DNA of 64,000 nt, taken from contig NZ_CANMUA010000001.1 of NCBI RefSeq assembly GCF_947500995.1, forward strand, positions 496,001 through 560,000. Direction: 5' to 3'. The stretch comes from an uncultured Serinicoccus sp. (GTDB lineage: Bacteria > Actinomycetota > Actinomycetes > Actinomycetales > Dermatophilaceae). Under the pieces are notes generated by a model. The model worked only from the letters and a program-made list of their open reading frames with translations, ran no database searches and was not told where the DNA came from. Below are positions 1 through 64,000 of this stretch, in pieces (the stretch's first letter is position 1; every line of letters begins with the position of its first letter). The translations under genes and the position numbers were made by a program.

Positions 1-569
1 GCGAAGGCGGCCCGGGCGACGAGGAGCAGCTGGGTGCCGGTCCACTCCCGGTGGCGCTGCTCGTCCAGGACCCGGCGGAGCATGTCGCCCGCGACCTGCG
101 GGTCGAACTCGAAGGCAGGGACGAACCAGTCCTCCGCAGCGAGGGCGGCCAGCTCCGCCTGCCCGACCTGGCTGAGGTCCTGCCACGCGATCTCGGCGTC
201 CGAGACGGACCGGCGGGCGATCCCGAGCACGAGGTGCCCGAGCGGCCTGCCGACCGGGTCGGCCAGGAGGGCATACCCCGTCGCCACGGCCTCCCCGACG
301 CGCGCCTCGCCCAGCAGCTGACGGACGGAGGTCACCACGCGCTCGCTGAGGGTGGGGCCCCGGCTGCCGAGCCTGGCCTCCACCGCCGGGGCGTGGTCCG
401 GTCGCGCAGGAGGCGCCGCCGGGACGGGCGTGCGGGCCGGACCCCGGCCGGGGCCGTCGGTCACCACCGGTCCGCCCGGGCGCCCGGGCGTGCGCGGGGC
501 GGGGCCCCTCCGGCGGACCACCCGGCGCAGGACACGACGGGCGGAGGACAGTGGGCGCGGCCTGCTCAT
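1..569 (-). CDS. Unrecognised protein, N-terminal part only (cut by window edge)
   Basis: This gene reads leftward from an ATG at 569, so only about 189 N-terminal codons are visible. The first ~70 residues are basic and Arg/Pro/Gly-rich (start MSRPRPLSSARRVLRR). From about residue 75 the composition becomes ordinary and helix-prone, for example ATGYALLADPVGRPLGHL near residue 97 and DWFVPAFEFDP near 147. The ATG overlaps the TGA of the upstream glycosyltransferase gene (ATGA, 566-569), which indicates translational coupling and a role in the same surface-polymer pathway. I do not recognise the family. The basic N-terminus resembles the N-termini of its glycosyltransferase neighbours, but that is composition only. 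The start is well supported by the overlap; the function is unknown. Confidence 0.6.
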   Translation of the reverse strand, partial: MSRPRPLSSARRVLRRVVRRRGPAPRTPGRPGGPVVTDGPGRGPARTPVPAAPPARPDHAPAVEARLGSRGPTLSERVVTSVRQLLGEARVGEAVATGYALLADPVGRPLGHLVLGIARRSVSDAEIAWQDLSQVGQAELAALAAEDWFVPAFEFDPQVAGDMLRRVLDEQRHREWTGTQLLLVARAAF

Positions 570-2320
570 GACACGGCCTCCTGACGACTCGTGGACAGCT
601 CCGTGGACAGCTCCCGGAAGAGGTGGACCCACCTGGTGACGAAGGCCTCTCGGCCGTACTGCTCGGCGACCTGGACGCACCCGGCGCTCAGCCGGTGCGC
701 CAGCCCGGGGTCCTGCAGCACCCGGAGCGTAGCCTCGGCGACCGCGCCGACGTCACCGGGGGCGACGAGGAAGCCGTTCACCCCGTCGGTGATCATGTCC
801 GAGGGACCGTACCGGATGTCGTAGCTGACGACCGGGCACCCGTTGACCATCGCCTCGCCCAGGACCATGGGGGCCCCCTCGTACTTGCTGGTCAGCAGAC
901 AGAGGCTCGCTCGTCGGAAGACCTCCTGCGGGTCGGTGGTGAAGCCCATGAGGCGCACCGAGCCGCTCAGTCCGCGACGGTCGATCAGCTCCTGCAGCCG
1001 GGGCCGCAGCTCGCCGTCCCCGTAGATCTCCAGCCGGGCCCGCGGGTGCTTCCTGAGCACCTTGGCGAAGGCCTTCACCCCGTGGCCCGTCTGCTTGACG
1101 TCACTGAGCCGACCCACCATGACGACCAGGTCGGGGTCCCGGTCGGGCGCCCGGCCATGGTCCGGGGTCGGTGCCGCGTGCGGGATCACCCGGAAGCGCG
1201 CCTGCTCCCCCAGGTATGCCTCGGCCTCGGCGCGCTGGCGCTCGGTGAGGAAGACCACCGGGTCCGGCCGCGTGCTCCGCAGCACCCGCGCGAAGCTCGG
1301 CCGCAGCCGGCTCACGTCGTCGCCCGGCGCCGCGAGGTGCGAGCTGTGCAGGACCGCGCACCGCGCCACGTGCGGCCGGTCGTAGCCGTCCAGCTCCCGG
1401 TCCAGGATGCGAGCCTCGACGGACAGGATGGTGGGGCGGCCCGCCGTGATCGCGTCGAGGGCGCGGTGCAGCAGCGGCGCGAACGACTCGTGCTCGCCCT
1501 CGGGGACGCCCGCCTCGTCGAAGGTGGTGACCGCGAGGTCGGCGGCCCAGCCCTTGCCGGTCTCGGGCTGCCGCAGGACGTGCGCGAACAGGGGCCGCCC
1601 GTCCCGCCGGTAGGCCACGTGCTGCCTGCGCTGACCGGGGCCGTCGTCACCGAACGTGGACCGGACCAGACGGCCGTCCTCGGCGAACTCGTCGCGGCGC
1701 ACCCGCACCCGGACCTCGTCGAAGTGGTCCTCCAGCAGCAGCCGCCCTTGCGCATACCGCCGCCTGGCCACCAGCCGGCCCTCCTCGAAGCACGAGTAGA
1801 CCGAGCTCGTGGCGCCCACGTCGGTCCATCCCTGCGCGAGGAGCTCCTCGCCGGTGAGGCCCGCCCGGTCGTCGGCGGCCCCTGGGTCGCTGGCGTCGGG
1901 GAGGGCGTCCAGGACGCTCATCACCTGCACCCCGTCCGAGAGGTGGCCGCGGCGGCGCATCGAGGCCACGGCACGCGGGAGGAAGGGCGAGTGGTTGCGG
2001 ACGAGCACCACCGAGTGCACGCCCGCCACGTCGTAGAGGTGGCGGCACTTGGCGAGGATCGAGGCGGTGCGCCCGCCGTACTCGACGGGGATCCCCTCGA
2101 CGGCGACCACGTGCAGCACGTCGGGGGCCGGAGCCGGCTGGGGCAGGGGGTCGTGCCGGACCCGCAGCGGCTCTCCGCCCTGCGGCCCGTCCTCGACCGT
2201 CGTCTCCTGCGCCGGTCCGGCACCGGCGGCCTCCCCCGGGTCGGCGCCCGTCGCGTCGTGCGTCCGCTCGCGTGCGGTGCCGATCGCCCGGCGCGCGGCG
2301 CGGGTCACCCTGCCTATCAT
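566..2320 (-). CDS. GT4 glycosyltransferase, TagE/GtfA-like, with beta-rich insertion (copy 1)
   Basis: 584 residues. After a basic linker (1-~65) comes an N-terminal Rossmann half starting PDVLHVVAVEGIPVEYGG. A beta-meander of repeated 'xG.L....' strands follows (about 170-270; GRLVARRRYAQGRLL). The GT4 donor half comes last, with VGRLSDVKQ near 415 and the EX7E motif in YEGAPMVLGEAMVNG near 495. That architecture is like poly(glycerol-phosphate) alpha-glucosyltransferases of the TagE/GtfA type, which carry an extended beta-sheet insertion. It would be a cytoplasmic, membrane-associated enzyme decorating a polyol-phosphate polymer; substrate inferred from context. The ATG at 2320 was chosen over a longer frame to 2395 because GAGAGG precedes it and it leaves 44 bp to the divergent acyltransferase gene. 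It is a paralogue of the gene at 3455-5161. Confidence 0.8.
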   Translation of the reverse strand: MIGRVTRAARRAIGTARERTHDATGADPGEAAGAGPAQETTVEDGPQGGEPLRVRHDPLPQPAPAPDVLHVVAVEGIPVEYGGRTASILAKCRHLYDVAGVHSVVLVRNHSPFLPRAVASMRRRGHLSDGVQVMSVLDALPDASDPGAADDRAGLTGEELLAQGWTDVGATSSVYSCFEEGRLVARRRYAQGRLLLEDHFDEVRVRVRRDEFAEDGRLVRSTFGDDGPGQRRQHVAYRRDGRPLFAHVLRQPETGKGWAADLAVTTFDEAGVPEGEHESFAPLLHRALDAITAGRPTILSVEARILDRELDGYDRPHVARCAVLHSSHLAAPGDDVSRLRPSFARVLRSTRPDPVVFLTERQRAEAEAYLGEQARFRVIPHAAPTPDHGRAPDRDPDLVVMVGRLSDVKQTGHGVKAFAKVLRKHPRARLEIYGDGELRPRLQELIDRRGLSGSVRLMGFTTDPQEVFRRASLCLLTSKYEGAPMVLGEAMVNGCPVVSYDIRYGPSDMITDGVNGFLVAPGDVGAVAEATLRVLQDPGLAHRLSAGCVQVAEQYGREAFVTRWVHLFRELSTELSTSRQEAVS

Positions 2321-2364
2321 GACCACCGATCCTCTCACCCGCGCACCCAGCGAGGGACCTGACC

Positions 2365-3454: not shown

Positions 3455-5161
3455 TCACCCCCGGGCCGTGGCCGGCAGGTCCGGGAAGAGGGTGCGGAAC
3501 AGGTGGAACCAGCGGGCGGCGAAGGCCTCCTGGCCGAAGCGTTCGTCCACCCCCGCGCACCCCTGGCTCAGCCGGCGCGCCAGGTCCGGGTCCTGCAGGA
3601 CCTGCACCGTCCGGGCCGCCAGCCCGTCGATGTCGCCGTCCGGGACGAGGAACCCGTTGACCCCGTGGTCGACGATGTCGGCGGGGCCGTAGCGGATGTC
3701 GTAGCTGACGATCGGGCACGCCTGCCGCAACGCCTCCACGAAGACCATGGGCGCGCCCTCGAAGAGACTCGACTGCAGGCACAGGCTGGCCCGGCGGTAC
3801 TCCCGCCCCGGCTGCTGGGTGAACCCCGCGAGGGTCACCGATCCACCCACCCCGAGCTCGTCGACGAGCTGCTGCAGCTCGGCCCGGCGGACGCCCTCCC
3901 CGTAGATCTCCAGGCGCGCGTCGGGCACCTGCTCCAGCACCTGCGCGAAGGCCCGGATGCCGTGGTCGGTGCGCTTCTGCCCGGCCAGCCGGCCCATCAT
4001 GATGACCAACCGGGGGTCCCGCTCCACGTCGGTGTGCGTGGCCGCCCCGGGCGCCGCGTGCGGCATCACCCAGAAGGTGTCGCGACGGCCGAGCAGCGCC
4101 TCGGCGTCGGCGCGCTGGCTGTCGGTGAGGAAGACCATGGCGTCCACGGCGTCGAGGTGCCGGAAGAGGCGGCGGAAGGACCCGCGCAGGTCGTCCGTCG
4201 CGCTGGAGGCCGTCCGCAGGTGGGAGTTGTGCGCCACGAAGCACGTCCGCACGTGGTCGCGGCGGTAGCCGAAGACGTCACGGTCCACCTGACGCGCCTC
4301 GACCGCGAGCACGGTCGGCCGACCCGCGGTGAGCTCGTCCAGCGCCCGGTGCACCACCGGGGCCAGTGATCCCTCGTGCGTCGACTCCACCTCGCCGGTG
4401 TCGTCGAAGAGGGTGACCGAGACCTCCCGGGGCCGCCCTCCGGAGTCGGGTGGTGGAGCGAGGCTCAGGGCATACATCGGCGCGCCGCTGCGGCGGTGGA
4501 GGACCTGCTCCACGGGCGTGCTCACGTCCGGTTCCCACCGCAGCGTCCGACGCAGACGGCCGGTGGCGTCGTACTCCTCGCGGCGCACCCGGCGCCCGTC
4601 GGTGTCGTAGGAGTCCACGTGCTCCAGCGCCCCGTCCCGGAAGCGGCGCACCTCCTGGCGGACGCCATCGGCCCGCAGGACGAGGGCACGGCCCTGACGG
4701 ACCCACCCGAGGGCCTCGAGGTCGGCAGGGGTCTCCCGGGTGGGCGGGGGCGGGTCGACCTGCTCCGTGCCGTCCGGGTAGGCGTCCATGAGCCACCGGA
4801 TCTCCACGCCCTCACCCAGCTGGCCGCGGCGGCGCATGCCCTCGACGGCCCGCGGCAGGGTGTGCGCGTGGTTGCGCACCAGGACGACCGAGCGGACGCC
4901 ACCCTGCTCGTAGAGGGTGCGGCACTTGGCCAGGATGGAGGCGGTGCGACCCCCGAACTCCATGGGTATGCCCTCCACCAGGACGACGTGCAGGACGTCC
5001 GGCGGCGGCGACAGCTCGGGGACCGGGTCGCGGCGCCTGACGGGCGGCTCCGGCGCGGGCTCCGGGGCCGTCGCGCGGTCAGGGGCGCGGTCACCGGGCC
5101 GCAGCGAGCGCCGCACCCGGTCGAGGACGCGGCGCGGCGTGGATCTCGGTGTTCCTGCCAT
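3455..5161 (-). CDS. GT4 glycosyltransferase, TagE/GtfA-like, with beta-rich insertion (copy 2)
   Basis: 568 residues, collinear with the gene at 566-2320. It has a basic N-terminal linker, PDVLHVVLVEGIPMEFGG near residue 50, then GRTASILAKCRTLYEQ. A beta-meander insertion follows (about 170-260; GRRVRREEYDATGRLRR), then MGRLAGQKRTDHG near 400 and the EX7E motif FEGAPMVFVEALRQA near 480, ending in SYDIRYGPADIV. The shared insertion suggests a poly(polyol-phosphate) glucosyltransferase fold; two copies may add different sugars or act on different linkages (inference). ATG 5161 is preferred; an in-frame ATG at 5179 would add six residues. The start is 45 bp from the divergent cytidylyltransferase fusion, so both probably share a promoter region. 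Confidence 0.8.
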   Translation of the reverse strand: MAGTPRSTPRRVLDRVRRSLRPGDRAPDRATAPEPAPEPPVRRRDPVPELSPPPDVLHVVLVEGIPMEFGGRTASILAKCRTLYEQGGVRSVVLVRNHAHTLPRAVEGMRRRGQLGEGVEIRWLMDAYPDGTEQVDPPPPTRETPADLEALGWVRQGRALVLRADGVRQEVRRFRDGALEHVDSYDTDGRRVRREEYDATGRLRRTLRWEPDVSTPVEQVLHRRSGAPMYALSLAPPPDSGGRPREVSVTLFDDTGEVESTHEGSLAPVVHRALDELTAGRPTVLAVEARQVDRDVFGYRRDHVRTCFVAHNSHLRTASSATDDLRGSFRRLFRHLDAVDAMVFLTDSQRADAEALLGRRDTFWVMPHAAPGAATHTDVERDPRLVIMMGRLAGQKRTDHGIRAFAQVLEQVPDARLEIYGEGVRRAELQQLVDELGVGGSVTLAGFTQQPGREYRRASLCLQSSLFEGAPMVFVEALRQACPIVSYDIRYGPADIVDHGVNGFLVPDGDIDGLAARTVQVLQDPDLARRLSQGCAGVDERFGQEAFAARWFHLFRTLFPDLPATARG

Positions 5162-6541: not shown

Positions 6542-9237
6542 TGACCTCCGCACCGCCGCCGCAGCACCCACCCTCGGTGCCGGGCGGTGCGCGGGTGCGG
6601 TCCGCCGTCCGTGACGCCCGCTTCCACCTCGTCCGACAGACACGACGGGTGCTGCGCCGACGGCTCGTGGCCGCGCGCGGCTCCGACAACGCCGTGCTCC
6701 AGCGGGCCTACGTGCTGGGCCGGCAGACCGCCCGCCGCACCCTCAACACGGTCACCGACCGGCAGGTCGGCTGGGTCGCCACCCTCTGGTCCGCGCGCTG
6801 GCTGGACGGCACGACCTACGAGATCACCGGGTGGGCCTACGAGCGCGGGTACGGCCACGAGCAGCCACCACGCATCGAGGTGGAGCTGCGCCGGCGGGGC
6901 TCCTCGACCCCGGTCCGGGCCCAGGTGGAGCCGGTCACCGAGATGGAGATCAACGGCCTGGCCCGGCGCGCCGAGTTCGACTACGCCAACACGGCCTTCG
7001 TCGCCCGGTTCGACCTCGCGCCCCTCCTGGCCGGTACGGACCCACGCCCGTGGCGGGTGCACCTGCGGGTCACGGGAGCGGACGGCAGGTCCTCCTCCGG
7101 CACGCTGAAGACGCGGCACCGCGCGGGGTCGGCCCGGGTCCTGGGGGTGCGCACCTTCTCCGGCGGGGTCCAGCTCGTCCCGCGCTGGGTCCGCCGCCGC
7201 GGGCTGTCGCTCGAGCGCCACCTGCCGGTCGCGACGGCCGGCCAGGTGGAGGTCGTCGGCCGTGAGGTGGCTGCCCGGGTCGAGCTGCGGGGACGCCGCG
7301 CCGCACGGGCGGAGCTGGTGTCGCGTGACGCGCGTCGCGCCATGACGCTCGAGCCGGTGGACGGCGCGCCGGGCGTCGTCCGGGTCCGCGCGCAGGTGCC
7401 CGAGACGTGGACCACGACCTGGCTGGAGAGCGACCTCCTGGGGTCGGACACCGACGAGACCTCGGCGCAGGGCATCCAGGAGGCCGGTGCGGACGAGGGC
7501 CTGGAGGAGGTGTCCGCGGAGCAGTCGGCCCCGACGGCCCCGGCGCCGCAGGGGGACGAGCACGAGGGCCAGCGTCGGGTCGCGCAGACCTACCGCCTGG
7601 TCGTCGTCGACGCACAGGGCGCGGAGCACGTGGCCGCCACGTCGCTGGACCAGTCCGACCCTGTGCAGGACCCCGGTTCCGGGCTGCTGGCCTACTCCGG
7701 CGACGGCGGCAGCCTGCTCGTCGGGGAGACCGGCTCCCAGCTGGTGGTGACCGACGCGACCCTGGAGCCCGGCCCGAGCCCACGGCTGCTCTTCGAGGGG
7801 TCCTGGGGCGGGCCGGGCGACCAGCTGTCGCTCAGCCTGGTCGGTCGGCGGCAGACGCTGGCCGCCCACCTGGACCTCCGGCCGGACGGCACCTGGTCGG
7901 CCCGGGCCGACCTCCGGCAGGGCCAGTGGGGCGGGCCGGCGCAGCTGCCCCGGACGGGCAGCTACGTGCTGCGGGCCCTCGACCCCACCGGGGGGACGGT
8001 ACGGGTCATGGCGGCCCCGTCCCTGGTCGCCCGGACCCCGGAGAAGCTGGACCTCCCCGAGGCACGCCTGCGCTGGGAGACCGGCCGTGGCCGGTCGTTG
8101 CGGCTGCGGGTGGGACTGACCCGCGCTCCCGACGAGCTCGGCTCCTTCCACCAGCGGCGCATGGACGCGGCATACCTGCGTGGTCCCCACGAGCCGCAGC
8201 AGTCGGTCTACCTCGAGTCGTTCTACGGCCGGCTGGCCACCTGCAACCCGTTCGCGATCGACGCGGTGATCGCCCGGGAGCACCCCGACTGGGTGCGCTA
8301 CTGGGGCGTCACCGACCTGTCGGTGCCGGTGCCCGAGGGCGCGGTCGCCGTCGTGGAGGGCACGCAGGCGTGGTTCGACGCGCGGGCGCGGTCGCGCTAC
8401 GTCGTCGCCAACGACTGGCTGCGCAGCCGGTTCGTCCCGCAGCCGTTCCAGACGGTCCTGCAGACCTGGCACGGCTCGATGTTCAAGCGCATCGGCCTCG
8501 ACCGGCCGACGTCGGGCGCCTCCACCCGCGCCGCTCTCCTGGTCGAGCGGGACAAGTGGGACGTCCTGCTGAGCCAGAACCACCACAGCACGCAGATCTT
8601 CCGGAGCGCCTACGCCTGGGAGGGCACGTTCTACGAGGAGGGCTACCCCCGCAACGACGCCCTGGTGGACGGGTCGGGGGAGCACGTCCGCGAGCGGCTC
8701 GGCATCCGCCCGGACCAGAAGGCGGTCCTCTACGCGCCGACCTGGCGGGACAACACGGCCGGGATGGTGCTCTTCCTCGACCTGGAGCGGCTCGCCGCCG
8801 ACCTCGGCGACGACTACGTCGTGCTGCTGCGCGGCCACTCGCGCACCGTCGGGCACGGTCGCAGCGTCGAGCTGCCCGGCGTCATCGACGTCACCACCTA
8901 CCCCAGCATCACCGAGCTCTTCCTGGCCGCCGACGCGATGATCACCGACTACTCCTCGGTGATGTTCGACTTCTCGGTCACCCGCCGACCGATGATCTTC
9001 TACGTCCCCGACCTCGACGAGTACCGCGACGACGTGCGCGGGGTCTACTTCGACCTCGCCGAGCAGGCCCCCGGCCCGGTGGTGAGCACCCAGGAGGCGG
9101 TGGTCGAGGCGATCCGGGCGATGGACGACGGCGACCGGTACGCCCGGCGCTACGACGAGTGGGTCGAGCGCTTCAACCACCTGGACGACGGGCACAGCGC
9201 CGAGCGGGTCGTGCGGCGGCTCTTCGCCGAGGGCTGA
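6541..9237 (+). CDS. CDP-glycerol:glycerophosphotransferase family polymerase (TagF/TagB-like) with long N-terminal extension
   Basis: 898 residues. The C-terminal ~340 residues are the CDP-glycerol glycerophosphotransferase domain: FYGRLATCNP near 561, TWHGSMFKRIG at 641-651 (His of the catalytic pair), APTWRDN near 730, and TDYSSVMFDF near 802-811. The first ~540 residues are beta-rich and partly acidic (Glu/Ala-rich linker near 305-345) with no membrane segment; they may be a polymer-binding or substrate-positioning module. The family transfers polyol-phosphate units from a CDP donor onto a lipid-linked or growing chain at the inner membrane face. TGATG overlap with the fusion gene makes one operon. 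The length is above that of typical TagF. Polymer identity is inferred. Confidence 0.88.
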   Translation: MTSAPPPQHPPSVPGGARVRSAVRDARFHLVRQTRRVLRRRLVAARGSDNAVLQRAYVLGRQTARRTLNTVTDRQVGWVATLWSARWLDGTTYEITGWAYERGYGHEQPPRIEVELRRRGSSTPVRAQVEPVTEMEINGLARRAEFDYANTAFVARFDLAPLLAGTDPRPWRVHLRVTGADGRSSSGTLKTRHRAGSARVLGVRTFSGGVQLVPRWVRRRGLSLERHLPVATAGQVEVVGREVAARVELRGRRAARAELVSRDARRAMTLEPVDGAPGVVRVRAQVPETWTTTWLESDLLGSDTDETSAQGIQEAGADEGLEEVSAEQSAPTAPAPQGDEHEGQRRVAQTYRLVVVDAQGAEHVAATSLDQSDPVQDPGSGLLAYSGDGGSLLVGETGSQLVVTDATLEPGPSPRLLFEGSWGGPGDQLSLSLVGRRQTLAAHLDLRPDGTWSARADLRQGQWGGPAQLPRTGSYVLRALDPTGGTVRVMAAPSLVARTPEKLDLPEARLRWETGRGRSLRLRVGLTRAPDELGSFHQRRMDAAYLRGPHEPQQSVYLESFYGRLATCNPFAIDAVIAREHPDWVRYWGVTDLSVPVPEGAVAVVEGTQAWFDARARSRYVVANDWLRSRFVPQPFQTVLQTWHGSMFKRIGLDRPTSGASTRAALLVERDKWDVLLSQNHHSTQIFRSAYAWEGTFYEEGYPRNDALVDGSGEHVRERLGIRPDQKAVLYAPTWRDNTAGMVLFLDLERLAADLGDDYVVLLRGHSRTVGHGRSVELPGVIDVTTYPSITELFLAADAMITDYSSVMFDFSVTRRPMIFYVPDLDEYRDDVRGVYFDLAEQAPGPVVSTQEAVVEAIRAMDDGDRYARRYDEWVERFNHLDDGHSAERVVRRLFAEG

Positions 9238-15694: not shown

Positions 15695-15726
15695 CACGGC
15701 ATACCGCTCACGTCAAGGAGGACACC

Positions 15727-16950
15727 ATGGCCGAGGCCGTCATCGTCGCCGCCGCCCGCACCCCGATCGGCCGCGCGTTCAAGGGGTCGCTGACCACCGT
15801 GCGGCCGGACGACCTGGCCGTCGGGGTGATCCGCGCGGCCCTGGAGCAGGTGCCCGGGCTCGACCCGACGACGGTGGACGACCTCTACCTCGGGTGCGCC
15901 GAGCCCTGGGGCGAGCACGGCTTCAACATGGCCCGGGTGGTGAGCGTGCTGCTCGGCCTCGACACGGTGCCCGGCGCCACGGTGAACCGCTTCTGCGCCA
16001 GCTCGGTGCAGACCACCCGCCAGGCGATGCACGCGATCAAGGCGGGTGAGGGCGACGTCTTCATCAGCGCCGGGGTCGAGTGCGTGTCGCGGTATGCCGA
16101 CTTCTCCGGCGCCGGGGGCGGCAAGGAGTCCTGGCGCAACCCGCTGTTCGCGGACGCGGTCGCGCGCACCGAGGCGATGGCCGCCTCCAACGAGACCTGG
16201 ACCGACCCGCGCGAGGACGGCCGGCTGCCGGACGCCTACATCGCCATGGGCCAGACCGCCGAGAACGTCGCCACCTCCCTCGGGATCTCCCGGGAGCGGC
16301 AGGACGAGTGGGGGGTCCGCAGCCAGAACCGCGCCGAGCAGGCCATCGCCGACGGCGTCTTCGCCCGCGAGATCGCGCCGGTCACCCTCGCCGACGGCAC
16401 CGTCGTCAGCACCGACGACGGGCCCCGCCCCGGGGTGACCCTGGAGAAGGTCAGCCAGCTGCAGCCCGTGTTCCGCGAGGGCGGCACCGTCACCGCGGGC
16501 AACTGCTGCCCGCTCAACGACGGGGCCGCCGCGCTGGTCGTCATGAGCGACACCCGCGCCGCCGAGCTCGGGCTGACGCCGCTGGCCCGGGTCGTCTCCA
16601 CCGGGGTGTCTGCCCTCTCCCCCGAGATCATGGGGCTCGGCCCGGTCGAGGCCTCCCGGCAGGCGCTGGCGCGCGCGGGCATGAGCATCTCCGACATGGA
16701 CCTCTACGAGATCAACGAGGCCTTCGCGGTCCAGGTGCTGGGCTCGGCCGACGCGCTGGGCATGGACGAGGACCGGCTCAACGTCCACGGCGGCGCGATC
16801 GCCCTCGGCCACCCCTTCGGCTCGACCGGCGCCCGCATCTCCACCACCCTCGTCAACGCCCTGCAGACCCGCGACGGCCAGTACGGCCTGGAGACCATGT
16901 GCGTCGGTGGCGGCCAGGGCATGGCGATGGTCATAGAGCGGCTCTCCTGA
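15727..16950 (+). CDS. Acetyl-CoA acetyltransferase / 3-ketoacyl-CoA thiolase
   Basis: 407 residues, full-length type II thiolase. It shows Cys90 in NRFCASS (acyl-enzyme nucleophile), NEAF, GGAIALGHPFGSTGAR with His362, and Cys392 in MCVGGGQG. It cleaves 3-ketoacyl-CoA or condenses acetyl-CoA in the cytoplasm; chain-length preference cannot be read. It has its own promoter-like TAGACT and a strong AAGGAGG site, so it is probably not in the ole operon, though adjacency to acyl-CoA-consuming ole genes is suggestive. No partner hydratase/dehydrogenase (FadB) gene is nearby. A large hairpin follows (16976-17043). Confidence 0.92.
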   Translation: MAEAVIVAAARTPIGRAFKGSLTTVRPDDLAVGVIRAALEQVPGLDPTTVDDLYLGCAEPWGEHGFNMARVVSVLLGLDTVPGATVNRFCASSVQTTRQAMHAIKAGEGDVFISAGVECVSRYADFSGAGGGKESWRNPLFADAVARTEAMAASNETWTDPREDGRLPDAYIAMGQTAENVATSLGISRERQDEWGVRSQNRAEQAIADGVFAREIAPVTLADGTVVSTDDGPRPGVTLEKVSQLQPVFREGGTVTAGNCCPLNDGAAALVVMSDTRAAELGLTPLARVVSTGVSALSPEIMGLGPVEASRQALARAGMSISDMDLYEINEAFAVQVLGSADALGMDEDRLNVHGGAIALGHPFGSTGARISTTLVNALQTRDGQYGLETMCVGGGQGMAMVIERLS

Positions 16951-17043: not shown

Positions 17044-17148
17044 CGCAGGTATGCCGACGCCCAGCGGGTGGGCGCGTGACCGCATACCTCGCGATCGACC
17101 GGTAGCCTGACGCCGATCTGTCCGTCCCCGCCCACCTGAGGTGACCCC

Positions 17149-18132: not shown

Positions 18133-18459
18133 TCAGGGCAGGCTGCGGCGCAGGGCGAGGAGCTGCTCGGCGAGGTCGGCCTCGGGCAGGTCGGTCTGCC
18201 GCCAGTCGTAGGTCATGACCCGAAGCTGGTCCATGACCACGCCCGGGCCGAGGTCGGGCACCGTCTCCCGCCGCTGCCCCGTCCGGTCGGCCACCGCGTC
18301 CGCGAGCTCCTGCACCACCCCCCGCACCCCGGGGTATGCCGCCTGCGCCCGGTCCAGCGGCAGCTGCTGCCAGCGTCGGACGACCCGCTCGGTCTCGGTG
18401 TCGACGACAGCGGACGGCCCGCCAGCAGACGAGCTGCCGGCGGGCCGTGTGCCGCTCAC
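18133..18459 (-). CDS. Small conserved-looking hypothetical protein
   Basis: 108 residues, soluble, no signal peptide. Helical pattern with VVRRWQQLPLDRAQAAYPGV (27-46), VVQELADAVADRT (48-60) and a C-terminus DLPEADLAEQLLALRRSLP. A GTG at 18459 lies 14 nt after the stop of the Bax-inhibitor-1 gene, so it is probably its operon partner. The start is uncertain: no clear ribosome site, and a GTG further in is possible. I do not recognise a family. Confidence 0.55.
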   Translation of the reverse strand: MSGTRPAGSSSAGGPSAVVDTETERVVRRWQQLPLDRAQAAYPGVRGVVQELADAVADRTGQRRETVPDLGPGVVMDQLRVMTYDWRQTDLPEADLAEQLLALRRSLP

Positions 18460-22107: not shown

Positions 22108-22150
22108 CCCAGGCCGGCCTGAGGCGTCTCGTGCCGGGCAGGATGGGGGT

Positions 22151-25179: not shown

Positions 25180-25315
25180 CGGGGCTCCTCGACACTCGGG
25201 TGGGGTGGCTGGGACGGGTGTGGCCAGGGTATGCCGTCCGCCCGGCCGCTCGCCGCACGCCGCGCCGCGACCCGGGGGGACCTCGGCAGATCCCCCCGGG
25301 CGCGGACGCGGTGGC

Positions 25316-32553: not shown

Positions 32554-32592
32554 ACCGGGAGACCTCACGGGAGAGACGGGGGACGACGGTCC

Positions 32593-48494: not shown

Positions 48495-48520
48495 GCCCGG
48501 TATGCCGTCGCGCCGCTACT
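48495..48520 (+). repeat. 26-bp direct repeat, left copy
   Basis: Identical over 26 bp to 52812-52837 (begins GCCCGGTATGCCGTCG, ends CGCCGCTACT). It lies 14 nt past the stop of the left sigma-partner gene. The pair brackets both sigma modules. Confidence 0.85.
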
Positions 48521-48534: not shown

Positions 48535-50307
48535 TCAGGGCGTCGGCGCGTCGGTGAACGGCAGGTCGACGCTTCCGTCACCGTCGGTGTCGAGACCGGC
48601 GAAGGCGTCCCGCAGGTCGCCACGGCCGGGTACCTGCACGGGGAGTGACCACCATCGGACGCCTCCGCTCTCGGTGACCTCCCCGAGCGGTTGTTGCACG
48701 GTGAGGCTGTCGTCCGCGGGCACGAGCACCGGGTCCGCGGCGCCCTCCGGCAGCCGGGCGACGAGGCTCCACATGTCGTCCTCGGTCCGCGTCGCCCGGA
48801 GGCCGGGGCCGTCCACCACGACAGGACTCTCGGCGTCAGCCCAAACCGCCCAGAGCTCCACCCCCACCGCGGCTGAGACCTGCACCCCGCCGAGATCTGG
48901 CAGCGCGGGATCGCTCGGACTGCCGCCCAGCACCCGGACGGTCGGCTCGTCCGCGAGGGGGTCCACCGTCAGTGCGCCCACCAGCTCCTCCCCGTCCAGG
49001 TCGAGCCTCAGGGCCGGAAGCAGGTCGTCGGCCAGCTCGAGCTCACCCTCGTCCGTGACGAGCTGCGGAGCCACCGACACCGGCCTGGCGTCCATCGAGG
49101 TCCACCGAACCACGGGGTGCAGGTCGGCCGTCGGCTGCGTCTCGGTCGTGTCCGACACCAGCACGACGCCACCGTCGAGATCACGCCAGGCCCACAGACC
49201 GTCACCGACATCGGGGATCTCCTGCAGCCGCCTACCGTCACGGGAGGCCCACACGTCCGCACCGGAACGGTGGAGGTCGATACCCCCCAGCCCGGCCGGG
49301 TCGACCGTGCCCGCATCCCGATCCCGCCAGCTCTCTCCGTCGACGGACCACTGCAGGTCCGGTGCGTACTGCGACCCCTCGCCGACCTCGGAGTACTCCC
49401 GCGCGGCGAGGGCGTACGTGCTGTCCCCCAGAGCCACGGTGTCGACAACCGGCTCGCCGGACAGGTGCTGCCCCGGCGCCGTGCTGACCAGCCGTGCCCT
49501 CGTGGCCTCCTGGGGCAGCCGGGCCAGCACCCACTCCACCGATCCTCCTCCGCGCCACCAGGGCCGCGGTTGGTCGCCGACGACCGACCACCCCGGGTCC
49601 AGGATCGTCACTCCCTGGTCGAGCACACCCGCAAGCCCACGATCCTCCAGCCAGAAGACGCGCTTCCGCACCGGCCCGTCCTCGACCATCCTCGTCTCCA
49701 CCACCTGTCCGCTCGCGGTCCACACGCTGCGCGAGTCACTGAAGAGCAGGTCTCGCGGCGGCCGGTCGGGCTCGGGCAGCACGGCATACCAGAGGTCGTC
49801 GTCGCTGCGCGCCGGCCCCATCTCACCGGAGTCCTCCTGCACCGGCACCACCTCGACGGAGTCCACCCCCGCCGGCTGGTCCCAGACCAGCACGGTGACC
49901 TCGCTCCCGACGAAGGCCTGGGCTCCGAAGCTCGTCCGCTGCCCGACGACGCTCTCTTCCCGCCCGTCCACGACGAGCGTGGCCGTCGGTCCGGCCGGTG
50001 TCCGGGTCACCACCGCGGAGGACACACCCCCCTCGGAAGTACGGTCCAGCAGCGTCAGGGTCTCGCCGTCGTCGATCTCCCAGGTCAAGGAGGCAGGCGA
50101 GACCTCCGGGGGCCCGAGCGGACCTGCTCCCAGTCCGGCCCACAGGATGCCGGCCAGCGCCAGTCCCCCGACGGCCGAGCCCACACCGACGGCCCGTCGC
50201 CGTCGCACCCGCGTGCGGCCAGCCATCACCATCTGCTCACCCGTCACCCGCGCCCCGGGTGCGTCGCGCACCGCGCGTTCCAGCAGGGTGCTCAGCTCCT
50301 CAGACAT
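48535..50307 (-). CDS. Membrane-anchored partner of SigE-family sigma factor (module 1)
   Basis: 590 residues. A short cytoplasmic N-terminus (1-~38, SEELSTLLERAVRDAPGARV) is followed by one transmembrane helix (about 40-62, GSAVGGLALAGILWAGL). The ~520-residue external domain is acidic, Trp/Gly-rich and beta-rich with repeated segments (WSVDGESWRDRDAG; LQEIPDVGDGLWAWRD), reminiscent of a beta-propeller, and ends DTDGDGSVDLPFT, an EF-hand-like Asp loop. The 8-nt overlap with the sigma gene argues for coupled synthesis and an anti-sigma or sensor role (inference; no classical zinc anti-sigma motif is seen). Same plan as the gene at 50866-52272. Confidence 0.72.
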   Translation of the reverse strand: MSEELSTLLERAVRDAPGARVTGEQMVMAGRTRVRRRRAVGVGSAVGGLALAGILWAGLGAGPLGPPEVSPASLTWEIDDGETLTLLDRTSEGGVSSAVVTRTPAGPTATLVVDGREESVVGQRTSFGAQAFVGSEVTVLVWDQPAGVDSVEVVPVQEDSGEMGPARSDDDLWYAVLPEPDRPPRDLLFSDSRSVWTASGQVVETRMVEDGPVRKRVFWLEDRGLAGVLDQGVTILDPGWSVVGDQPRPWWRGGGSVEWVLARLPQEATRARLVSTAPGQHLSGEPVVDTVALGDSTYALAAREYSEVGEGSQYAPDLQWSVDGESWRDRDAGTVDPAGLGGIDLHRSGADVWASRDGRRLQEIPDVGDGLWAWRDLDGGVVLVSDTTETQPTADLHPVVRWTSMDARPVSVAPQLVTDEGELELADDLLPALRLDLDGEELVGALTVDPLADEPTVRVLGGSPSDPALPDLGGVQVSAAVGVELWAVWADAESPVVVDGPGLRATRTEDDMWSLVARLPEGAADPVLVPADDSLTVQQPLGEVTESGGVRWWSLPVQVPGRGDLRDAFAGLDTDGDGSVDLPFTDAPTP

Positions 50308-50779
50308 GGCGCTCCTCCCGCAGCAGTGGCCGCAACGCGGCCAGCCCTGCCGACGTGTAGCTCTTGACCGAACCGACGCTCACCCCGAGCGCTGCGGCGG
50401 TGTCCTTCTCCGACTGGTCGAGGTAGTGCCGCAGCACCACGCACTCCCGCTGCCGTGGGGAGAGCTGCTGGAGCGCACGGACCAGGTCCGTGGTGGCCGG
50501 GCCGTCCCGGTATGCCGTCTCCGGCACCTCGTCCGTGATGCGTTCCCGCCTCCCCTTGCGCCACCGGTCGGTGTGGAGGTTCGACATGGTCCGGCGCGCG
50601 TAGGCCAGTGGCCGACCGGACCGGACGCGACGCCACCGCACGTAGAGACGGACGTAGGTCTCCTGCAGCAGGTCCTCGGCGGCGTGCGCGTCGGCGGTCA
50701 GGAGCCAGGCATAGCCGTGCAGCGTCGCCCGGCTGGCGTCGACGAACTCGACGTAGGCCGCCTCCTCGCTGCTGCGCAC
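50300..50779 (-). CDS. SigE-family ECF RNA polymerase sigma factor (module 1)
   Basis: 159 residues. Region 2: VEFVDASRATLHGYAWLLTA and AAEDLLQETYVRLYVRW with the -10 reading helix near 40-65. Region 4: LSPRQRECVVLRHYLDQSEK then AAALGVSVGSVKSYTSAGLA for -35 recognition. It belongs to the actinobacterial 'SigE family' of small ECF factors that are paired with membrane proteins. GTG start with GAGGAG about 10 nt upstream. A 10-bp motif at 50821-50830 is shared with the promoter region of the second sigma gene. Confidence 0.9.
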   Translation of the reverse strand: MRSSEEAAYVEFVDASRATLHGYAWLLTADAHAAEDLLQETYVRLYVRWRRVRSGRPLAYARRTMSNLHTDRWRKGRRERITDEVPETAYRDGPATTDLVRALQQLSPRQRECVVLRHYLDQSEKDTAAALGVSVGSVKSYTSAGLAALRPLLREERHV

Positions 50780-50865: not shown

Positions 50866-52272
50866 TCAGTCGCCGAGCGGGACCACCTGGACGCCAGTGA
50901 GCCCCAGGGGCTCGGGGTCGCGCGCTCCTCCTGGCACCGTGCCGACATCGGTGACCTGCGCCTGCTCGGTCGGCGACAGCTCGGGAAGTCCAAGGAAGGT
51001 CACCGGCCGGCCGTCGACGAGCTCGCGCACCCGTACCGAGGTGGCGGCCTCCCAGCGACCACCCGCGCCGTCGCCGATGCGGACGGCAGCCTCCTCCGCA
51101 GGGGCCGCCCAGCCGCCGACCACGACGAGGGTGCCGCCGGTCACCGGGACCACGACGGCTCGCCCGTCCGACAGCTCCTCCTCGAAGGACAGCGCCTCGG
51201 TGCTGGGCCCCTGGTCCAGCCAGAGGAAACCCGCGGCGGTGGACCTCCAGGTCACCGGCGGCTCGCCCACGCCGACCTCCGTCGCCTGGGCCTGGACGTA
51301 CGACGTGAGCGCCTGCCGCTCCCCGTCGATGACCACCTTGACCTCGGGCGTCGCGGTCCCGTCGCCGACGCCGACCAGGACCTGGTGCCCTGCCAGCTCC
51401 GCCGACGCACCCTCGACCCCGCCCTCTCCCAGGGCGGCCTCGGCCTCGGTCGGCGCCAAGGACACCACCCACGGGGCCGATGGCTCGCCGCCGCTCGTCG
51501 TACCGGCGCCGCCATGGGCCGGCATGACCTCGATGCGGCCGTCGTCCTCCGGCCCCCGGACGCCCCACAGGCCCGCCCGCTCGTCCAGGAAGACCACGAA
51601 GCGACGCTCCTCCACCGCGAGATCCAGGGACGGGACATCGCGTCCATCCAGGGTGGTGACCGCACCCTCGGTCATCACGTACAGCTCCGCCGGGTCGGCC
51701 GACCCCACCCCTGCCGACGCGGCATACCCGATCCTCGTTCCGCCTCTCTCGGCAGCGCCGCCGGTGCACAGGAGGCACTGGCCTCCCCACGCCACCTGAC
51801 CACCCTGCTCTTCGGGCTCGGCGCGCAGCCAGACCGCGACCGTCAGCCCGTCGGTACGGAACACCTGGATGTCTCCCGGCCCGTCCTGCGCCGCGAGCGG
51901 CTCGGGCAGGACCTCCCCGTCGCGCGAGACGACGAGCTCCGGCTGCTCTTCCCCCTCCACCGTCCGCAGCTCGGCGTTCCAGGAGGTCTCGCCCGACAGC
52001 CCGAAGAGGCGGCCCTCCAGGTCGAGGTCCGACCAGGTGACCTCGGCCGGGGCAGTGGTGGGGTCCTCACCGAGGGGCGCGACCGCCCAGCCGAACCACA
52101 GCACCCCCGCGACGGCGAGCGCCGACACGGCGGCGGCGATCCGACGACCACGACGGATCGTGCTGCCGCGCCGCACCACGTCCACGCGAGACACGTGCAG
52201 CGGCGGGGTGTGGCCACCGGCCCGGTCGAGCAGCGCCACGACCTCGTCGATGTCCTCGCGGGCCTCAGTCAT
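50866..52272 (-). CDS. Membrane-anchored partner of SigE-family sigma factor (module 2)
   Basis: 468 residues. Cytoplasmic N-terminus (1-~42, TEAREDIDEVVALLDRAGGH), one transmembrane helix (about 45-66, AAVSALAVAGVLWFGWAV), then a ~400-residue acidic external domain with PLGEDPTTAPAEVTW just after the membrane, matching PLGPPEVSPASLTW in module 1. Two Cys (GGQCLLCTGG) may form a disulfide or bind metal outside the cell. It overlaps the sigma gene by 8 nt, exactly as in module 1. Probably an anti-sigma/sensor; ligand unknown. Confidence 0.72.
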   Translation of the reverse strand: MTEAREDIDEVVALLDRAGGHTPPLHVSRVDVVRRGSTIRRGRRIAAAVSALAVAGVLWFGWAVAPLGEDPTTAPAEVTWSDLDLEGRLFGLSGETSWNAELRTVEGEEQPELVVSRDGEVLPEPLAAQDGPGDIQVFRTDGLTVAVWLRAEPEEQGGQVAWGGQCLLCTGGAAERGGTRIGYAASAGVGSADPAELYVMTEGAVTTLDGRDVPSLDLAVEERRFVVFLDERAGLWGVRGPEDDGRIEVMPAHGGAGTTSGGEPSAPWVVSLAPTEAEAALGEGGVEGASAELAGHQVLVGVGDGTATPEVKVVIDGERQALTSYVQAQATEVGVGEPPVTWRSTAAGFLWLDQGPSTEALSFEEELSDGRAVVVPVTGGTLVVVGGWAAPAEEAAVRIGDGAGGRWEAATSVRVRELVDGRPVTFLGLPELSPTEQAQVTDVGTVPGGARDPEPLGLTGVQVVPLGD

Positions 52273-52811: not shown

Positions 52812-52837
52812 GCCCGGTATGCCGTCGCGCCGCTACT
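52812..52837 (+). repeat. 26-bp direct repeat, right copy
   Basis: Same 26 bp as 48495-48520. Its last five bases include the stop codon (TAG on the minus strand) of the peptidoglycan-binding gene. It contains one GGTATGCC word. Confidence 0.85.
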
Positions 52838-55034: not shown

Positions 55035-55874
55035 TCAGCGGGAGCGGATCGCCTCGTCGTACAGCTCCTTGGCCGACAGCCCCGTGGTGCGCGCGAGGTC
55101 CTTGGTGACGTCCTTGAGCCGCTCGCCCGCGGCCACCCGCTCCAGCACCCGGGGTATGACGTCCCCCACGTCCACCGTCGACGCGTGCGCGGCGCTGGCG
55201 CCGGCGACGACGACGGTGATCTCCCCCCTGACCCCGTCGGCAGCCCACGCGGCCAGCTCGGCCAGCCCCCCGCGGCGCACCTCCTCGTAGGTCTTGGTCA
55301 GCTCCCGGCACACCGCGGCCGGACGGTCCTCACCCAGGGTCGCGGCCATCGAGCCGAGGGTGGCCGCCAGCCGGTGCGGCGCCTCGAAGAAGACCATGGT
55401 GCGCGCCTCGTCGGCGAGCCCGGCGAGGGCCCGCTCGCGCTCGCCGGTCTTGCGCGGCAGGAAGCCCTCGAAGCAGAAGCGGTCCACCGGCAGGCCGCTG
55501 ACCGCGAGCGCCATGAGCACCGCCGAGGGTCCGGGGACGCAGGTCACCGGCAGGTCGGCGGCGACGCAGGCCTGGACGAGCCGGTAGCCGGGGTCGGAGA
55601 CCGAGGGCATCCCGGCGTCGGTGACCAGGAGCACGCGGTCCCCGCCGGCGATGCGCTCGACCAGGTCGGGGGTCCGGGAGGCCTCGTTGTGCTCGTGGTA
55701 GCTGACGACCTCGCCCGTGACGGTGATCCCGAGGCGGTCGGTCAGCCGGCGCAGCCGGCGGGTGTCCTCCGCCGCCACCACCCGTGCGTCAGCCAGCTCG
55801 GCGAGCAGCCGGGGGCTGGCGTCGCGGCTGTCGCCGATGGGGGTGGCGGCGAGGACGAGCGCGGCGTCAGGCAT
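55035..55874 (-). CDS. rsmI: 16S rRNA 2'-O-ribose C1402 methyltransferase RsmI
   Basis: 279 residues, tetrapyrrole-methylase fold. LVLAATPIGDSRDASPRLLA at 6-25, AEDTRRLRRL near 35, YHEHNEASR near 60, GDRVLLVTDAGMPSVSDPG near 78-96, and GPSAVLMALAVSGLP near 115. It uses SAM to methylate C1402 of 16S rRNA. The ATG lies in GGTATGCC and is 5 nt after sdhB, an unusual neighbour; rsmI next to a protein O-mannosyltransferase region is the mycobacterial order, here with sdh genes inserted between. Confidence 0.93.
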   Translation of the reverse strand: MPDAALVLAATPIGDSRDASPRLLAELADARVVAAEDTRRLRRLTDRLGITVTGEVVSYHEHNEASRTPDLVERIAGGDRVLLVTDAGMPSVSDPGYRLVQACVAADLPVTCVPGPSAVLMALAVSGLPVDRFCFEGFLPRKTGERERALAGLADEARTMVFFEAPHRLAATLGSMAATLGEDRPAAVCRELTKTYEEVRRGGLAELAAWAADGVRGEITVVVAGASAAHASTVDVGDVIPRVLERVAAGERLKDVTKDLARTTGLSAKELYDEAIRSR

Positions 55875-55879
55875 ACCCC

Positions 55880-56626: not shown

Positions 56627-58611
<1,985 letters not shown>

Positions 58612-59423: not shown

Positions 59424-61034
59424 ATGGAGTCACTGCGGGCGCGCCTGCTCGGCCCGGCGCCCGCGGAGCTCGCCGGGCAGCGGCGCGTCGCCGCGCTCGG
59501 CATCCTGGTGGTGACGCTCGTCGGGGGCGCGCTGCGGTTCTGGCGCCTCGGTCACCCCGACCGGTTGGTCTTCGACGAGACCTACTACGTCAAGCAGGCC
59601 TGGTCCCTCGTCCGCTTCGGGCACGAGCGGGAGACCAAGGCCGGCCTGGAGGAGCCGGACGAGCTCTGGAACGCCGGCAACCCCGACGTCTTCGGCAACC
59701 AGCCCGACCTCGTCGTGCACCCGCCGGTGGGCAAGTGGATGATCGCCCTGGGCGAGCTCGTCACCGGGCCCGGGTCCGCGACCGGCTGGCGGCTGTCCGC
59801 GGCGACCATCGGGACGCTGTCCATCGCGCTCCTCGGGCTGTGCGCCTGGCTCATCTGGAAGAACGCGCTCCTGGCGATCAGCGCCTCGACCCTGCTCGCG
59901 GTCGACGGGCACCACTTCGCCTCCTCACGCATCGGTCTGCTCGACCTCTTCCTCATGTGGTGGGTCCTGCTCGCCTTCCTCTTCCTCCTGCTGGACCGGG
60001 AGCAGGGCCGGCGCAGGCTGGCGGCCCGGTGGGGGCCGTGGTGGCAGGCGCGGCACGGCCCCGACGTGCCGGTCCCCCGCTCGGCCTGGGCCCGCGCCGC
60101 CCGGTGGTGGGGGCCGTCGCTGGGGGTCCGGTGGTGGCGGCTGGCCGCGGGGGTCAGCCTCGGCCTGGCCATCGGCACCAAGTGGTCGGGGCTGTACTTC
60201 CTCGCCGTCTTCGGGCTCATGACCGTGGCCTGGGACCTCGGCGCCCGCCGGGCCGTCGGCGCGCGCGACTGGCTCACCGGCACGGTGGTGCGCGACGGCA
60301 TACCCGCGTTCCTGCTCATGGTGCCCACGGCGCTGGTGACCTACGTCGCCGGCTGGGCCGGGTGGTTCGCGACCCGCGGCGGGTGGAAGCGGGACTGGGC
60401 GGCCGACCACCCCGCCCCGCCCGGGTCGCTCGCGGCGCTGGTGCCCGACCCGCTGCGCTCGCTGTGGGCTTACCACGTCGAGCAGTGGAACTTCCACATC
60501 GGCCTCGCCAACGAGCACGCCTGGAGCTCCAACCCGTGGAGCTGGACGGTGCAGTGGCGCCCGACCCTGTTCTACGCCGAGTGGCCGGAGCGGGGCGAGC
60601 AGGGCTGCGGGGCCGCCGAGTGCGTGGAGTACATCGCCTCCCTGGGCAACATCGTCCTCTGGTGGGGTGCGACGATCGGGCTGCTGGTCGTCCTCTTCCT
60701 GTGGCTGCTGGGCCGCGACTGGCGGGCGGGGGCGGCCCTGGCCGGCATCGCGGCCGGCTGGCTGCCGTGGTTCCTCTACCAGACGCGGACGATCTACAGC
60801 TTCTACGCCGTCGCCTTCGTCCCGTGGCTCGTGCTCGTCGTCGTCACGTGCCTGGCGCTGGTGCTCGGCCCGGCGGACGCGCCGGCGCAGCGGCGACGAT
60901 GGGGTGCCGTCGCGGTCATCGGCTACCTCACCCTGGCGGCCGCCTTCTTCGCGTGGTACTGGCCGGTCTACACGGCCATCACCATCCCGCGCGAGGCGTG
61001 GAACCTGCGGATGTGGTTCGACTTCTGGACCTGA
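59424..61034 (+). CDS. Protein O-mannosyltransferase (PMT, GT39)
   Basis: 536 residues, about ten membrane helices. The acidic motif VFDETYYVKQAW near 48-59 is the catalytic DE loop, VHPPVGKWMIALGE is near 97, DGHHFASSRIGLLDLFLMWW is near 156, and the PMT C-terminal part includes WYWPVYTAITIPREAWNLRM. It transfers mannose from polyprenyl-phosphate-mannose to secreted proteins as in the mycobacterial Pmt. It lies near rsmI as in mycobacteria, divergent from sdhC. The start is set by the TACGAT site 7 nt upstream. Confidence 0.93.
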   Translation: MESLRARLLGPAPAELAGQRRVAALGILVVTLVGGALRFWRLGHPDRLVFDETYYVKQAWSLVRFGHERETKAGLEEPDELWNAGNPDVFGNQPDLVVHPPVGKWMIALGELVTGPGSATGWRLSAATIGTLSIALLGLCAWLIWKNALLAISASTLLAVDGHHFASSRIGLLDLFLMWWVLLAFLFLLLDREQGRRRLAARWGPWWQARHGPDVPVPRSAWARAARWWGPSLGVRWWRLAAGVSLGLAIGTKWSGLYFLAVFGLMTVAWDLGARRAVGARDWLTGTVVRDGIPAFLLMVPTALVTYVAGWAGWFATRGGWKRDWAADHPAPPGSLAALVPDPLRSLWAYHVEQWNFHIGLANEHAWSSNPWSWTVQWRPTLFYAEWPERGEQGCGAAECVEYIASLGNIVLWWGATIGLLVVLFLWLLGRDWRAGAALAGIAAGWLPWFLYQTRTIYSFYAVAFVPWLVLVVVTCLALVLGPADAPAQRRRWGAVAVIGYLTLAAAFFAWYWPVYTAITIPREAWNLRMWFDFWT

Positions 61035-63053: not shown

Positions 63054-63571
63054 GTCGCGTCGCCGCGCGTCTGCCCGGTCACCCGCGCGAGCTCGGCGGT
63101 GACCCGGTCGGCGACGTCGGTGTCCAGGCAGGTGAGCCGGATCGGCCCGGCCGCCGAGGCGGTGGTGACGGTGACGTTGGCCAGCCGGAAGATCCGCATG
63201 AGCGGACCCCGCTCGGTGTCGACGGTCTGCACCCGCGACAGCGGGGCGATGCGCTGGTCCCGGGACAGCCACCCGGTCTGGGCGAAGACCCGCTCCCCGG
63301 TGACCTCCCACCGGGTGCGGCGGTAGCGGATGATCGGCTCCAGCGCCTGCTCCACGACCGTGTAGACGAGGATGGCCACGAAGACCGGCCCGAGCCACCG
63401 CTGCACCCCGTCGGGCACGAACCAGTAGACCGCGAACAGGACGCCCCAGACGACGACGGCGCCGAGGAAGCCCTGGAGGGCCCAGTAGCGCACCGCCCGC
63501 GGGCTCACCTGGTGCGCCGGCTCGTGCAGCGGCGCGGCGTCGGGCACGGAGGAGGGCTGCGTCACGGTCAT
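63050..63571 (-). CDS. PH-domain membrane protein, YdbS-like (bPH2)
   Basis: 173 residues. Two membrane helices near 33-55 and 62-80 ([31 protein letters not shown]), then one bPH2 domain: [40 protein letters not shown], and [15 protein letters not shown]. It pairs with the larger YdbT-like protein; together they resemble ydbS-ydbT of Bacillus. The ATG overlaps the argF TGA by four bases (ATGA), so the pair is coupled to an arginine-pathway gene, an odd arrangement. Confidence 0.85.
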
Positions 63572-64000
63572 GCGAGCGTCGCCACCAGGAGCGCCTTGAT
63601 GGTGTGCAGGCGGTTCTCCGCCTGGTCGAAGACGATGCTGGCACCGGACTCGAAGACCTCGTCGGTGACCTCCAGCCCGTCCGCGAGCTCTGGATGGATG
63701 CTCATGAGCTGCTCCCCCACCTCGGTGTCCGTGTCGTGGAACGCCGGCAGGCAGTGCATGAACACGGCCTGCGGGTTCCCGGTCGCCTCCATCATCGCGC
63801 GGTCCACCCGGAAGGGCAGCAGCAGGTCGATCCGCTCCTGCCAGGCGCTGGCCGGCTCCCCCATGGAGACCCAGACATCGGTATGCACGGCGTCCACCCC
63901 GGCGACCGCCTCGCGGGGGTCCTCGGTCACCGTCAGCCGGGCGCGGGTGCCTCCGGCGACCTCCTCGCACAGGGCGACCACCTCGGGCGCGGGCTGCAGG
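63568..64000 (-). CDS. argF: Ornithine carbamoyltransferase, C-terminal part (cut by window edge)
   Basis: About 143 C-terminal residues are visible; the gene continues past the window. [14 protein letters not shown]-type motif ([12 protein letters not shown]), [13 protein letters not shown], the ornithine loop [13 protein letters not shown] with the HCLP signature, and the C-terminal [19 protein letters not shown] identify the family. It makes citrulline from ornithine and carbamoyl phosphate. Whether it is the biosynthetic (ArgF) or catabolic (ArcB) form cannot be told without the rest. Its stop overlaps the YdbS-like start (ATGA). Confidence 0.92.

Follow-up and report, generated by a model that had tools for sequence, protein, structure and literature searches.

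What does a short DNA word do that recurs throughout a stretch of bacterial chromosome, inside genes as well as outside them? This question was raised by a 64-kb stretch of DNA from an uncultured Serinicoccus sp. (hereafter the window; positions 496001 to 560000 of contig 1 in a source genome of 45 contigs and 3,805,170 bases), in which the octamer GGTATGCC is present in 34 copies, 17 per strand. We report here that GGTATGCC is a member of a family-wide word with the core GTATGCCG, and we weigh the roles that this word may have.

Abundance and strand neutrality of the word

Dinucleotide shuffles of the window contained on average 0.70 GGTATGCC, and none of 100 shuffles reached 34. When the octamers of the window were ranked against a second-order Markov model, GTATGCCG (35 copies for 1.15 expected) and then GGTATGCC (34 for 1.26) led the list, so that the enrichment survives Markov correction. 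A G stood directly 3' of GGTATGCC in 27 of the 34 copies. The original prediction, made from the letters of the window, had counted about 58 copies of the shorter core GTATGC/GCATAC. There are 59 (28 + 31), and the claimed excess over chance is real, but the expectation of 16 was too high, the dinucleotide and second-order models giving 6.6 and 8.0. Similarly, the proposed spacing of once per kilobase holds for this core (about 1 per 1.1 kb) but not for the octamer, which occurs once per 1.9 kb in the window and once per 2.7 kb genome-wide. The whole source genome contains 1415 GGTATGCC (752 + 663) versus 8 copies (4 + 4) of the reversed word, the window being somewhat rich in GGTATGCC relative to the genome as a whole. 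The copies are spaced slightly more evenly than random in the source genome (coefficient of variation (CV) 0.87; variance 1.69 for a mean of 2.26 in 5-kb bins) and nearly randomly in most of 12 genomes (CV 0.79 to 1.12 in eleven, 1.84 in G033). These counts confirmed the dispersed word and showed it to be stronger than first claimed.

Such an excess might be a by-product of codon, dipeptide or base-composition bias, all the more so as the commonest reading frames of the word are those coding Tyr-Ala, Ala-Tyr and Gly-Ile-Pro. Yet, when synonymous codons were shuffled in 45 open reading frames (ORFs) of the window, a mean of 2.42 copies was obtained (SD 1.48, maximum 8 in 500 runs) versus 28 genic copies, which refutes codon or dipeptide bias. 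ORFs were called by the contrast in GC content at third codon positions with custom scripts, so that their limits are approximate, as are some of the calls themselves. The word was found in all six reading frames, in line with the several frames mentioned in the original prediction, and it was denser outside called genes than inside: a 464-kb sample of the source genome had 0.40 words per kb in genes (164 words) and 1.04 per kb elsewhere (51 words), and 400 kb of the related genome G007 had 0.58 per kb in called genes and 1.41 outside. Together with the near lack of the reversed word, these results leave a bias of this kind with a negligible probability.

The word also showed no preference for the strand of the gene, with 70 copies in the same and 94 in the opposite orientation in the source genome, and 100 and 108 in G007. 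Over the 81 word-rich genomes described below, 83,095 forward copies were counted versus 83,161 reverse ones, and in 20 stretches of G007, a complete genome, 68 forward and 66 reverse copies were found in the first ten and 63 and 68 in the second ten. Since it occurs in all frames, on both strands and without gene-strand preference, the word acts at the level of double-stranded DNA. Its survival of the synonymous shuffle and its family-wide recurrence with dialects further uphold the idea of selection, or drive, on DNA as such. A signal acting at the RNA level or at start codons was rejected, as there is no gene-strand preference and as a called start fell within only 10 of 215 words in the source genome and 9 of 265 in G007.

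All 34 matches are given here in window coordinates. Outside called ORFs, the word lies at 15698..15705 (minus strand), ahead of a thiolase-family ORF starting at 15727, and on the plus strand at 17048..17055, 18333..18340, 48499..48506 and 52816..52823. The word had been said to span the start codons of udg, mfd and rsmI. This is correct for the first, as the ATG in the copy at 22148..22155 (plus) begins a UDG-family ORF. In the other two, the in-frame ATG is close to a start, if not the start itself: that in the copy at 32549..32556 (minus) is codon 6 of the longest mfd ORF, and the ATG at 55870..55877 (minus) is at about residue 40 of a TP_methylase (rsmI-like) ORF, whose domain begins at residue 45. 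Another copy is within mfd (31278..31285, plus). As predicted, the word codes Gly-Ile-Pro twice, at 4965..4972 (plus), read in the minus-strand ORF 3455-6643, and at 60297..60304 (minus), in a protein O-mannosyltransferase-like gene; in the former ORF the glycosyltransferase match covers residues 875-1027 and the word is near residue 558. The remaining copies are located on the plus strand at 1213..1220, 16091..16098, 23273..23280, 25228..25235, 26757..26764, 38575..38582, 42963..42970, 45094..45101, 50509..50516 and 58038..58045, and on the minus strand at 270..277, 8169..8176, 19311..19318, 19759..19766, 22716..22723, 23778..23785, 24311..24318, 26935..26942, 36470..36477, 44872..44879, 47736..47743, 49783..49790 and 51721..51728. 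As a separate observation, the palindrome GGTACC is strongly avoided in the window (2 sites versus 27.6 expected) and GCATGC is also avoided (9 versus 30.9), a pattern as for restriction targets.

Range, dialects and turnover in the family

The family set analysed (f1) is what we take to be Dermatophilaceae in GTDB. Identity between the window's mfd and that of Serinicoccus reaches 97%, and other near relatives include, by NCBI name, Ornithinimicrobium, Terrabacter, Humibacillus, Intrasporangium, Phycicoccus and Flexivirga. We counted GTATGCCG in 149 family genomes, drawn evenly from a larger set, and classified them by chosen cuts as word-rich (at least 500 copies; 81 genomes), word-poor (7 to 153; 55 genomes) or intermediate (in between; 13 genomes). 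Of the 53 genera, 25 comprised rich genomes only, 19 poor ones only and 3 intermediate ones only, while 6 were mixed; the highest count in a relative was 4724. The ratio of GTATGCCG to the reversed-word control was 2.5 to 50 (median 10) in rich genomes and about 2, at most 5, in poor ones; where the ratio is low, as in g37 and g57, this presumably stems from a C preceding the core, through which control and word come to overlap. In the other families of the order, at most 177 GTATGCCG were found (297 order genomes, 24 of them of this family, read by eye).

The distribution was also patchy inside genera. Thirty further genomes of the window's genus had 38 to 2180 GGTATGCC, the lowest count being that of G023, in which a 24-kb sample contained neither GGTATGCC nor GTATGCCG. 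Genus g47 had 1062 and 3681 GTATGCCG in two genomes but 19 in G120, and g57 had 1251 to 1660 in four genomes but 37 in G173. These three genomes, which have background word counts inside word-rich genera, are either natural losses or misplaced genomes. A tree of mfd was built from the window and 45 of 80 loci (the 35 left out were mostly short or distant), with word states assigned from loci no longer than 24 kb at a cut of 0.2 GTATGCCG per kb; this tree required a minimum of 6 switches between the rich and the poor state. Among the loci of this tree, GTATGCCG was absent from the seven Cellulomonas, Actinotalea, Promicromonospora and Demequina rows and from the Streptoalloteichus outgroup.

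De novo ranking of octamers put GTATGCCG or GGTATGCC on top in seven word-rich genomes. In a comparison of twelve such genomes (80 to 464 kb each), the core was common to all, but the flanking bases differed. The dialect of the window's genus is GGTATGCC, mostly with a following G. A G preceded the core in 171 of 224 sites in the source genome and 136 of 202 in G007, and a C in 40 of 49 in G149; a G at +2 was found in G119 (33 of 43), G111 (53 of 76) and G103 (28 of 32), and G077 had no clear flank preference (20 sites). The dialect of G067 (genus g37), CGTATGCCGCTGRGC, is a long form: CGTATGCCGCTG was read at 16 of 23 sites, and RGCT followed at most of them. The sixth base is free in G033 (73 C, 44 A, 40 G, 28 T), and this relaxed form is the dialect of g4 and g49. 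Counted family-wide, GTATGDCG reached 3273 to 5477 in all five g49 genomes and 3747 in G033, and at most 182 in nine g39 genomes, all rich in the C form, so that the sixth base is strict in all nine. The dialects, which have their core in common, thus go largely by genus, with the exception of g54, which is mixed (GTATGDCG 52 to 746). Two side observations concern the long form. At L229:19420-19447 in G067, two long-form words stand head to head and make a perfect 28-base palindrome, a possible hairpin. A single missing base sets the long form ...ATGCCGCTGA of g37 (L226-L229) apart from the neisserial AT-DUS (ATGCCGTCTGAA), a likeness that is probably due to chance.

No GTATGCCG-like word led the octamers in 80 kb each of G133, G120, G093, G174 and G138. 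G174 (genus g60) contained another dispersed octamer, CCCCCTTC, noted with a following G as CCCCCTTC(G), in 32 copies (18 forward, 14 reverse) versus 3.9 to 4.5 expected in the same 80 kb. Its excess was limited to the exact form, as the reversed control occurred 3 times versus 2.6 expected and the one-mismatch forms 102 times versus 98.6. It was not enriched in seven other sampled genomes, nor in 80 named loci (33 versus 49.9 expected). CCCCCTTC may be a second uptake-type word or, because G174 has RecC, a Chi site. A candidate substitute word in G133, AGGTGAAA (10 copies versus 0.3 expected), was rejected as a local cluster, 8 of the 10 being in one stretch.

The specificity of the word was sharp. 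In the source genome, the exact word reached 44 to 51 times the word-masked expectation (25 to 28 times the unmasked one), and one-mismatch words about 1.3 times the word-masked one. Changes at positions 2 to 6 of GGTATGCC gave 0.5 to 1.8 times expectation where more than 2 were seen, and those at its two ends as much as 16 times.

Turnover was followed over a collinear 200 kb in the source genome and G029, about 92% identical. Of 82 words, 65 were kept; 17 were specific to the source and 15 to G029, which had 80 in total. At the G029 sites of the 17 source-only words, 13 differed by one base and 4 by two. The words were better conserved than octamers with three A/T (66.0% kept, p 0.006). Individual copies are thus barely better kept than rare words are, and yet their number is steady, copies being both lost and gained. 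Nine sets within the window's genus (five genomes and four Serinicoccus loci) kept 48 of 74 words versus about 39 expected, though these sets share sites and are not independent; six sets of other genera kept none of 10, about 1.6 being expected. The word was also rarer in low-GC DNA, which served as a rough stand-in for acquired DNA. Bins of 2 kb below 70% GC had 8 words in 16 bins versus 15.3 expected in the source genome (P 0.031) and 19 in 34 bins versus 50.4 in G007 (P 4e-7), the expectation being the rate of the other bins (216 in the source genome). Phage TJE1 (49 kb; host Tetrasphaera jenkinsii) had 2 GTATGCCG versus 0.9 expected and 3 GGTATGCC versus 1.4, a result for one phage whose host genome was not counted.

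Possible roles of the word

The pattern of its copies suggests to us, with a probability of roughly 60%, that GTATGCCG (GGTATGCC[G] in the window's genus) is a signal like a DNA uptake sequence (DUS), serving natural transformation. A reader protein, on the surface of the cell or along the route of import, would recognise this short asymmetric word and prefer free DNA that carries it, and word-bearing DNA would then enter and recombine more often. Biased uptake would spread and keep copies while single copies turn over, a change of the reader would lead to genus-level dialects, and a loss of the bias would let the word decay. Such a bias would account for the strand neutrality and permissive placement of the word, for a copy number that stays steady while copies turn over, for the sharp specificity and the dialects, and for the scarcity of the word in low-GC DNA and its absence from single species. 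From these patterns we infer the bias, the existence of a reader and, indeed, that these bacteria are transformable at all. Among the options that had been offered for the word, the uptake sequence appears to fit best.

The genes for DNA import are widespread in the family, ComEC being found in 145 of 149 genomes, DprA in 148 and TadE in 145. They prove nothing about the word, because they are equally common in word-poor genomes; comEC is present, for instance, in word-poor G120. As to the reader, our guess would be a minor pilin of the Tad/Flp pilus or a ComEA-linked protein, the former by analogy with the actinobacterium Micrococcus luteus, whose transformation depends on two tad clusters (PMC4322843). 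That paper does not use the term uptake sequence. Some side observations were made on these genes. One stretch of the source genome with a Tad-type ATPase (L202, contig 1, 680001-700000) has 1 word in 20 kb, where about 9 are usual, and the other Tad stretch (L203) has 10. The source genome (G000) has eleven TadE-type hits versus one to eight in most relatives. In G139, G140 and G190 the comEC match is split over adjoining pieces, by frameshift or assembly error.

Several results weigh against an uptake sequence. No competence or pilus family tested separated rich from poor genomes (ComEC, TadE and DprA in 149 genomes; PF07963 and PF00437 in 58 relatives), and no useful difference emerged when comE loci were compared between two genomes of each class, word-poor and word-rich. 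The neisserial reader ComP is of the N-methyl pilin class, and such pilins (PF07963) were found in none of 31 genomes of the window's genus, i.e. the source genome and 30 others. The conservation of the word between the source genome and G029 (65 of 82) was no better than that of the rarer octamers with TAT, TAC, ATA or GTA (76.1%, p 0.30), and the flanks of the word diverged like random places (0.9244 versus 0.9252). The DNA lacking in G029 had no words versus about 2.4 expected, but amounts to only about 5.9 kb, too short to tell. Close inverted pairs showed no clear excess in 12 genomes: neighbours within 80 bases numbered 62 versus 60.3 expected, and 38 of the close neighbours were inverted versus about 30. 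The highest values were those of G149, 6 versus 1.9, and G007, 20 versus 13.7. Finally, one-mismatch forms are nearly at background here, whereas they are overrepresented in Bakkali 2007 (PMC1939737). On the other side, the sharp fall from 0 to 1 mismatch as such speaks for an uptake sequence: that paper gives drops of overrepresentation of 92- and 82-fold for Haemophilus and Neisseria, though with another expectation model than ours.

If the word were instead a chromosome-wide binding or modification word like the cyanobacterial highly iterated palindrome 1 (HIP1), an orphan methyltransferase or a nucleoid protein would act on GTATGCCG and selection would keep the copies. A high copy number, patchiness over lineages and use of coding DNA also describe HIP1 (PMC4390886), and the slightly even spacing in the source genome points the same way. 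Yet, the word lacks symmetry and varies from genus to genus, its core included, and no candidate protein is known, methyltransferases and nucleoid proteins not having been surveyed; we therefore regard this role as doubtful, though worth keeping in mind. A target of restriction-modification is unlikely because of the strong enrichment, the lack of palindromy and the drifting dialects.

A Chi-type recombination site, which would tame an exonuclease-helicase (RecBCD, AddAB or AdnAB), belongs to a known class of over-represented oligomers (PMC4390886), and the source genome does have RecC. However, RecC was commoner where the word is scarce: 30 of 55 poor genomes have it, as do 6 of 13 intermediate ones, but only 24 of 81 rich ones. 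This is the wrong way round and rules out a RecBCD Chi site, and there was no strand bias in the 20 stretches of G007, whose origin was not located. Overall, we hold a Chi-type role to be improbable. The balance of strands also speaks against a polar motif, like FtsK orienting polar sequences (KOPS) or an SMC loading site, that would direct segregation of the chromosome. The shortness of the word and its genome-wide spread would suit such a motif, but no polarity was seen in G007, and one would hardly expect a signal for segregation to be missing from some related species. The lack of strand bias had rightly been taken to argue against a polar KOPS-type signal, and a polar form of the replication motif offered at first is a very remote prospect.

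Relation to known systems

To our knowledge, uptake sequences are established in two proteobacterial families only, so that ideas on their origin, their reading and their purpose (kin exchange, repair or selfish drive) rest on few cases. We lean, though only slightly, towards the view that the GTATGCCG dialects are the first uptake-sequence language outside Proteobacteria, used by a Gram-positive actinobacterial family, read via a Tad/Flp-type filament or another import protein, with repeated loss, change of dialect and perhaps replacement (CCCCCTTC in G174) cutting exchange between genera. If so, the questions of origin, reading and purpose could be put to the test in an independent family that comprises many genera, several dialects, cores both strict and relaxed, and genomes lacking the word; natural transformation would appear to be common among environmental actinobacteria, and a new import protein that reads sequence would be indicated. 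The three genomes with background counts in word-rich genera (G120, G173 and G023) would be useful for finding this reader, and adding the right word to DNA could make intractable actinobacteria easier to transform. In the open-licence literature (subscription papers and preprints being outside this scope), we found no paper on uptake sequences in Actinobacteria/Actinomycetota, Serinicoccus or Intrasporangiaceae. Among the matches listed, no title on Micrococcus, Gram-positive bacteria or HIP/DUS dealt with such a word in this group, nothing was relevant to GGTATGCC, and there was no paper for GTATGCCG; an account may be in print elsewhere.

AT-rich flanks are a feature of the uptake signal sequences (USS) of Pasteurellaceae; none were seen here, a long 3' flank being present only in G067, and the word itself is different. 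The two are alike in that USS is a genome-wide 9-mer with subtypes within the family (PMC3630211). HIP1 (GCGATCGC) of cyanobacteria is likewise an octamer of high density and patchy over its lineage, but it is a palindrome linked to methyltransferases (PMC4390886), unlike the asymmetric word described here. Chi sites are also short, asymmetric and over-represented, whereas the present word shows no polarity and no link with RecC.

The neisserial DUS, read by ComP, differs in that the host here belongs to Actinomycetota and not to Proteobacteria, with Tad-type genes and no N-methyl pilins found in the genus; inverted pairs are not clearly in excess, and uptake is a matter of inference in our case. 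In other respects the likeness is considerable. DUS is a short asymmetric word in thousands of copies, with a shared core and clade-level dialects (Frye 2013, PMC3630211), its abundance falls sharply from the exact to the one-mismatch forms (PMC1939737), and it is rare in the laterally acquired low-%G+C genes of Neisseria (PMC2397512), as the present word is in low-GC DNA of the source genome and G007.

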